From: Cyclobacteriaceae bacterium
GTDB taxonomy: Bacteria; Bacteroidota; Bacteroidia; Cytophagales; Cyclobacteriaceae
Length of the DNA: 35,919 bases
Direction of reading: 5' to 3'
Assembly (NCBI GenBank): GCA_018224645.1
Contig: JAGTVG010000155.1
Span: 1-35,919 of the forward strand
The notes under the pieces were generated by a model. It did not search any database and was not told the DNA's origin. It worked only from the letters and a program-made list of their open reading frames with translations. Made by a program: the position numbers and the translations under genes. Within the stretch, counting starts at the first letter, position 1; every line of letters starts with the position of its first letter. Of this stretch, positions 33,422 to 35,889 are shown piece by piece.

Positions 33422-34369
33422 CTACTCTACATAAACCCCCATTTTGGAAAACTTGTCAATCCTTTTCATGATCCTGTCTCTGGGAGAAAGTTTTTCAAGC
33501 GTCTTCAGATTTTTTAGTATTGTTTCCTTCAGGATCACGGCGGCTTTTTTCATATCCGTATGAGCACCGCCAAGCGGTTCTTCAATAATGCCGTCGATCA
33601 GTCCGAATTTTTTCATGTCATTGGCGGTAAGTTTAAGCGCTTCCGCCGCCTGTTCCTTGAAATCCCAGCTCCTCCAGAGGATGGTTGAGCAGTTTTCCGG
33701 ACTGATCACCGAATACCAGGTGTTTTCCATCATCAGCACCTGGTCGCCGATGGCGATTCCCAGGGCGCCTCCGGATGCTCCCTCGCCGATAATGATACAG
33801 ATGACCGGAACCTGGAGAACGGACATCTCCTTCAGGTTGCGCGCAATGGCCTCCGCCTGTCCCCTTGCTTCTGCTTCAATTCCGGGATAGGCGCCAGGAG
33901 TATCGATCAGGGTGACGACAGGGATATTGAATTTTTCTGCCATTTTCATCAGACGCAGGGCTTTTCTGTAGCCATCGGGGTTTGCCATGCCGAAATTGCG
34001 CATCTGCCGCTGTTTTGTATTCCTTCCCTTCTGCTGGCCAATGAACATGATGGTTTTTCCTTCCATGGTGCCCATGCCTCCTACCATGGCTTTATCGTCC
34101 TTCACGGCCCGGTCACCATGCAGTTCGATAAAGTCATCGGTGATCTCGTAGATATAATCAATGGTATAAGGCCTGTCAGGATGTCTAGCCAGCTGGACAC
34201 GCTGCCAGCTCGTAAGGTTCTGGAATATTTCTTTTTTCAGACTCTCCAGTTTGACTTCAAGGCTGGCGATAGCCTTATCCACGTTTACCCCGCTGTTCTG
34301 GGCGAGGTTTTTCATCTCGTCAATTTTAGTTTCCAGATCGGCAATCGGCTTTTCAAATTCTAGATGCAT
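33422..34369 (-). CDS. accA: Acetyl-CoA carboxylase carboxyltransferase subunit alpha
   Basis: Probable start at 34369 ([20 protein letters not shown]); [73 protein letters not shown]. Confidence 0.96.
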
Positions 34370-34520
34370 AGGTTTTAATATATTCTCCGGAACAAACTTA
34401 TAAGATTTAAGAATAATATGCGCAACATTTAAGATATAAAAAAACGGGTAAATTGCCAATATGATTATCCCGGACCAGCCTTCCCTGTAGGGAGGAGCTA
34501 AAAAAAATTTAATCTTAACC

Positions 34521-34622: not shown

Positions 34623-34697
34623 GGTCTGGTAGTTCAGCTTGGTTAGAATGCCTGCCTGTCACGCAGGAGGTCGCGAGTTCGAGTCTCGTCCAGACCG
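34623..34697 (+). tRNA. tRNA-Asp (anticodon GTC)
   Basis: GGTCTGG...CCAGACC acceptor stem, TAGTTCAGCTTGGTTAGAA D-arm, CCTGCCTGTCACGCAGG anticodon arm, GCGAGTTCGAGTCTCGT T-arm. Confidence 0.97.
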
Positions 34698-34703
34698 CTG
34701 AAA

Positions 34704-34737
34704 AAGCCCCTAGATATTTTCTGAGGGTTTTTTTTGT
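34704..34737 (+). terminator. Putative terminator after tRNA-Asp
   Basis: aagcccctagatattttctgagggttttttttg: short G/C stem followed by T8. Confidence 0.5.
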
Positions 34738-35156
34738 TTTATAGTGTGTGTGTTAGTGTGAAAACCCATGTTATTATGATTATTTTTGACATTCACCTAT
34801 ATGAGCAACCCAATAATGAACGGGATCGATTGAAACAGAATTTATACAAGCTGGCTTTTAAGTTTGAAGATCCACCTGAAAGGATAACAAAGGTTAGTAA
34901 TCATTTACGACTCCCTTTTTAAAAAATATCATATTCTGCTTTGGTTATTTCTTGTAGATCCTGCATTATTGATTCAGATGCCATTGAAGATCCATTAGAA
35001 TTGAATTCCACCCTGTAATTGGATTAAAAATGGATACAGATTATTTCCGATGGCTGATTTTCCATAAGACTAAGCGCATTTTTGATCCCAGTAAATATAT
35101 TTTCCAAACATTTTACTGATTTTGCGGTCATTTTTTAATTAATTATTATAAAAGAT

Positions 35157-35889
35157 ATGTCTGATCAACTAGCCTGCTTTACTTTTTTGCTGTATATCGG
35201 TAAAACAAAAAGTGGGGGTTTAGCCAAATGTTTAAATCCCGGGAAATCCTCGACCGATGCCCTGACCTGAAATTCTATAAATTAGTTTGTCTTGGAGGTG
35301 GTAATGGATATAGCCTTAAAACGAGTTTTGATTCCTACAGCATATTCACTGTCTGGGATCATCCACAACATGCCGATCATTTTTTCAATTCATCCTTTTT
35401 CGGGGAATTTGTCAACAGGAGTCATGAACAATATACAATTGTCATGAAACCCATCATCTCAAGGGAATCATGGTCAGGTTTCAATGAATGGAAATTGTCC
35501 GGAATGGATGCTGATAATTCATTAATCTGTGTACTGACGAGAGCAACCGTAAAAGTTAAGTTTTTCATCCATTTTTCAAGATGTTCCGGAAGGTAATTAG
35601 AGATCATCATCATTTTCCTGGTCTTTTATTTTCAAAAGGATGTTCTGAAATGCCATTCAGAGAACAGGCTACATTTTCCATATGGGAAAATGTCGACGAG
35701 ATGAAAAAATTTGCCTATCAAAGCTTTCATGCGATGGCCATTAAGGTCCCCCGGAAACGAATAGGATTCAAGGGGGACATGTATACCCGTTTTAAACCAG
35801 TCGCAACCATTGGCTCCTGGAAAGGTAAAAATCCACTATTTAATAAAGTGAATCATCTGGAGGATTATCATTTATCTTTGTTGAGGTAA
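35157..35889 (+). pseudogene. Spheroidene monooxygenase (CrtA)-like gene interrupted by two frameshifts
   Basis: Three consecutive frames: MSDQLACFTFLLYIGKTKSGGLAK (35157..) + MFKSREILDRCPDLKFYKLVCLGGGNGYSLKTSFDSYSIFTVWDHPQHADHFFNS...LTRATVKVKFFIHF (35228..) + MFRKVIRDHHHFPGLLFSKGCSEMPFREQATFSIWENVDEMKKFAYQS...RFKPVATIGSWKGKNPL* (35581..35889). Together they read as one ~245-aa protein. Confidence 0.6.

Follow-up and report, generated by a model that had tools for sequence, protein, structure and literature searches.

Positions 35157-35889 of the window (the whole stretch of DNA analysed, 35,919 nucleotides, which is the entire contig G000:C155; the draft genome it belongs to measures 4.69 Mb, is split into 561 contigs and is 88% complete) hold a single CrtA-like gene that is now spread over three reading frames, as its translation and the ORF listing indicate. 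Sequence comparison makes it probable that this is a young pseudogene, broken twice by one-base deletions. Read in this way it is most likely an ordinary case of gene loss, in an uncultured Cyclobacteriaceae bacterium. The parts of the gene and its nearest upstream neighbour are as follows.

34623 to 34698, + strand: intact tRNA-Asp(gtc), the upstream neighbour, outside the gene (ARAGORN; Rfam RF00005, 66 bits)
35157 to 35201, + strand: 5' part of the CrtA-like gene, read in a frame of its own; the first 15 codons, start codon included (MSDQLACFTFLLYIG)
35202 to 35212, + strand: lesion 1, one base short of the congener, in AAAACAAAAAG
35204 to 35562, + strand: middle part, in the second frame (NKKWGFSQMF...TRATVKVK)
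35560 to 35568, + strand: lesion 2, one base short of the congener, in TTTTTCAT
35563 to 35889, + strand: 3' part, in the third frame, ending at the stop codon TAA 35887-35889

The earlier note on this DNA had listed overlapping ORFs at 35228-35596 and 35581-35889 and an unlisted 5' frame starting at ATG 35157 (MSDQLACFTFLLYIGK...), and all of these are there. The congener used throughout is G001, a Cyclobacteriaceae MAG (isolate Ww429, GenBank JAHEGY01) and the sole same-genus relative in the set searched. Its copy of the gene lies in one frame, open for 189 codons up to the end of its contig (ORF L020:4880-5446). Residues 1-10 of the 5' part are the same as in this ORF, and by tblastn residues 2-29 of the ORF match 35154-35237 at 61% identity (E 5e-6). 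The middle part matches residues 19-142 at 67% identity. The 3' part matches residues 140-191 at 69% identity, and matches the homologue in another relative, G229, at 48%. Identity to one ORF of the congener is therefore 61-69% across all three frames.

The middle ORF (from 35228) also matches NF045923, the NCBIfam model for spheroidene monooxygenase CrtA, over profile positions 24-140 (E 1.6e-20, 73 bits), and the last ORF matches it over positions 156-226 (E 9.3e-16, 58 bits). A second profile search gave positions 9-141 and 154-226 (E 2.5e-23 and 7.9e-15). The pieces fall in order along the same 226-position model and match the congener ORF in all three frames, so we take them to be one gene and not a chance arrangement. 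A member of the family should have one uninterrupted frame of about 220-260 codons; the frame is unbroken in relatives and split in the window, which makes the window gene a broken relative rather than a working member of the family. A ribosome starting at 35157 would lose the family frame within lesion 1, where the codon after the first 15 falls, and would stop after 37 codons at TGA 35268-35270, so no CrtA-like enzyme would be made.

The exact position of the two lesions comes from a MAFFT nucleotide alignment with the congener, which contains exactly two one-base gaps over 567 comparable bases. Lesion 1 is flanked by a G codon (35199-35201) and a W codon (35213-35215); between them the window has 11 bases and the congener 12. 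Its outer bounds are about 35196-35212. MAFFT itself opens the gap a little further upstream, near 35195, where the nucleotides agree about as well, and since that placement would add a TAA at 35201-35203, 35202-35212 is the simpler site. Lesion 2 lies between the KVK codons and CCA, where the 8 bases at 35561-35568 stand against 9 in the congener; the alignment puts the gap at 35563. Two single-base losses of the same sign had been proposed before and are seen here, but each of the two sites named for them misses by roughly 10-20 bases. The AAA run at 35224-35228 lies within CAAATGTTTAA, which is the same in the congener without a gap, and the middle frame is already open and matching from 35204 (NKKWGFSQMF against NRKWGFGQMF in the congener). 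The T5 run at 35572-35576 fares no better: ATCCATT (35567-35573) aligns gap-free, and HPFFKM already matches YPFFSM in the third frame. Lesion 1 thus falls in an A4-C-A5 tract and lesion 2 in or beside a T5 run. Homopolymer lesions spotted by eye need to be placed by alignment.

The earlier note had suggested comparing the locus in sister genomes. The middle piece, searched in its own genome and 58 relatives, matches in 16 genomes, its own included, with no internal stop within the matched stretches of those 16. The gene is kept in one frame in the congener and in 14 other relatives. The family model, the congener and the 14 further homologues support the reading of one gene broken twice by -1 lesions. 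An order-wide search found a match in 159 of 391 genomes; among the matches listed for these carriers, only the window genome has internal stops. No second crtA copy, intact or otherwise, was found in the window genome.

What is less safe is the name. NF045923 is an equivalog with a curated cut-off of 300 bits. Both main pieces fit this model of the CrtA of purple bacteria in order, but their 73 and 58 bits fall far below the cut-off, and the most that window pieces reach on it is 84 bits. The partial congener protein reaches 136 bits and two intact homologues of the same family 223 and 220. Since neither the pieces nor the three relatives tested attain the cut-off, 'spheroidene monooxygenase' is not a safe name on these profile scores, and 'CrtA-related' (CrtA / CrtA-OH superfamily) is the safe one. 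The likeness to CrtA noticed earlier is thus right in kind. A Pfam search of the window ORFs gave only sub-threshold matches, the best to DUF3291; no solved structure matching the family profile was found; and a single-sequence structure prediction of the congener protein was unusable (pLDDT 34).

The window gene and its congener copy stand far apart from the other homologues (30-37% identity, on a branch of length 2.1), and the closer relative of the window gene is that of G229, at 43% identity. Between window and congener the gene has a pN/pS of 0.23, the median over 61 gene pairs being 0.29, which argues that selection acted on it through most of the divergence, until recently. It contains no nonsense codons apart from those produced by the shifts. 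Family-invariant residues are nevertheless not all kept in the window copy: 11 of 31 invariant columns are changed, and Cys and Glu replace two glycines that do not vary among the 14 homologues and the congener. At the 23 invariant columns shared with the congener, 5 are changed in the window against 3 in the congener, and there is no invariant column in the shared part at which the congener alone departs. The window branch is longer than that of the congener (0.31 against 0.11), whereas the control genes give no window excess (CrtB 0.30 against 0.42, CrtI 0.25 against 0.27). By site counts the asymmetry is weak: 26 against 16 sites gives p 0.16, and a comparison with CrtB/CrtI as the control gives p 0.09. 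Taken together, pN/pS, the glycine losses and the branch lengths fit a recent inactivation with slight decay.

The invariant C-terminal motif WY.EELFARF reads GFKGDMYTRF in the window (35764-35793). This may be decay, or it may be a trait of the branch, since G229 is 52% identical to the window in the region of the motif. It is conceivable, if rather improbable, that the window gene belongs with the congener copy, and perhaps with the G229 gene, to a divergent branch of CrtA whose motifs have changed and which may have another substrate or activity, in a lineage that is losing the gene and keeping the rest of the carotenoid pathway. Within such a branch WY.EELFARF is absent at least from the window copy.

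A more serious alternative to the pseudogene is that the organism's gene is intact, encoding a CrtA-related oxygenase, and that the low-coverage end of the contig holds a local error, of assembly or of consensus, or else a chimera of strain variants. We consider this possible and on balance doubtful. The gene stops 30 b from the contig end. Coverage may be low there, and this position leaves room for an artefact. The congener contig, at 4x coverage, also breaks inside the gene, so the locus may assemble badly. The substitutions look selected, and the lack of nonsense codons beyond those the shifts cause is what an artefact would give. Against these points stands a frameshift survey in which 527 kb of the window genome were compared with the ORFs from 1.07 Mb of congener sequence. 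Over 69 congener ORFs and 74.5 kb aligned, the only frameshifts are the two in the CrtA-like gene; the other compared genes have none in about 73.9 kb, about 12.8 kb of it less than 800 b from contig ends. The reverse search, window genome against congener, found no frameshifts either. With a Jeffreys prior, the chance of two errors in 0.73 kb is 4e-5 at a uniform rate and 1e-3 for contig ends alone, figures that overstate the case since the locus was chosen for its odd look. An error of frame alone would not cause the glycine changes, so on this explanation the loss of the two invariant glycines stays unexplained. We infer that the lesions lie in the organism's DNA, beyond assembly. Poor base quality across the whole genome was considered as well and is ruled out, there being no other frameshift in the 73.9 kb.

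Two further explanations would keep a product. Programmed (-1) frameshifting or transcriptional slippage could merge the three frames into one protein. In its favour, the two lesions sit in short A or T tracts and would be bridged by the same shift. Yet the shift would have to happen twice in succession, the runs are only 4-5 bases long, and neither site, on inspection, offers a clean X XXY YYZ heptamer in the incoming frame (A AAA AGT, G TTT TTC). The congener and the 14 other homologues are single-frame, so the shift site is not conserved in relatives, and we regard this explanation as very improbable. We give no more credence to the idea that the middle or the C-terminal ORF is translated alone as a shorter functional protein. 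Each of the two has an ATG, but in the family protein both of these fall at internal codons, and most of the open frames in relatives measure 220-290 aa. The earlier note had left three options standing. The young pseudogene is favoured, assembly error is possible and disfavoured by the genome-wide check, and regulation by frameshifting is contradicted by the single-frame homologues.

The young pseudogene resembles known bacterial frameshift pseudogenes, which likewise carry small deletions in short homopolymer-rich tracts, have a sister lineage with the frame open, and remain recognisable elsewhere. It differs from them in having only two lesions and little more decay, which is why we call it young, and in lying at a contig end. 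The scenario we propose is that a gene of the CrtA / CrtA-OH family, acting in C-2 oxygenation of the acyclic end group of a carotenoid, would have been inherited by both members of the genus and then kept under selection for most of their divergence. Inactivation would have come recently, in the window lineage or strain, through two one-base deletions in A-rich and T-rich tracts.

The rest of the pathway suggests an organism that makes carotenoids but may no longer carry out one end-group step. The genes crtB and crtI are adjacent on another contig of the window genome (C166) without internal stops, and a second CrtI-family desaturase, CrtD-like, is on a third (C160). In the relative G009 about 2 kb separate the CrtA homologue from a CrtI-family gene, which supports a carotenoid role. 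CrtA-OH is a carotenoid 2-hydroxylase, reported to be homologous to CrtA, from Flavobacterium P99-3 and Nonlabens spongiae; it acts on the acyclic (psi) end group after CruF and CrtD, and in N. spongiae it converts 1'-hydroxytorulene to deoxymyxol (PMC11855829). PMC5822342 cites Rhodobacter CrtA and the flavobacterial enzyme as carotenoid 2-ketolases and 2-hydroxylases. The bearers of CrtA-OH belong to the same phylum as the window genome, which also has CrtB, CrtI and a second CrtI-type desaturase. Compared by the description of CrtA-OH, the window gene differs in lying outside a carotenoid gene cluster and in its two frame lesions. We infer both the substrate of the ancestral enzyme and the effect of its loss on the pigment. 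With phytoene synthase, phytoene desaturase and the CrtD-like desaturase retained, carotenoids should still be made, and the 2-oxygenated end group would probably be missing. If the loss is real, it adds another case in which a single tailoring step of a bacterial pigment pathway has gone in one species of a genus while the core genes are kept, and knowing of it helps annotation and the prediction of the organism's carotenoid.

The surroundings of the gene deserve a few words as well. Between tRNA-Asp(gtc) and crtA there are about 400 b (34735-35150) with only short open stretches in all frames. A search there for other decayed genes gave no acceptable family match, one sub-threshold match and weak genome matches; the stretch is either plain intergenic DNA or too decayed to name. 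The tRNA gene adjoins an accA-like gene on the minus strand (33422-34459), and this block is kept in the congener (G001:C12), where the tRNA region is 90% identical. What follows the tRNA in the congener is another ORF (L041:3517-3858), which is still open where the contig stops. Its crtA is on a separate contig with other neighbours, and that contig breaks inside the gene at about codon 189 (L020:5446), so that both contigs end in or near the same gene.
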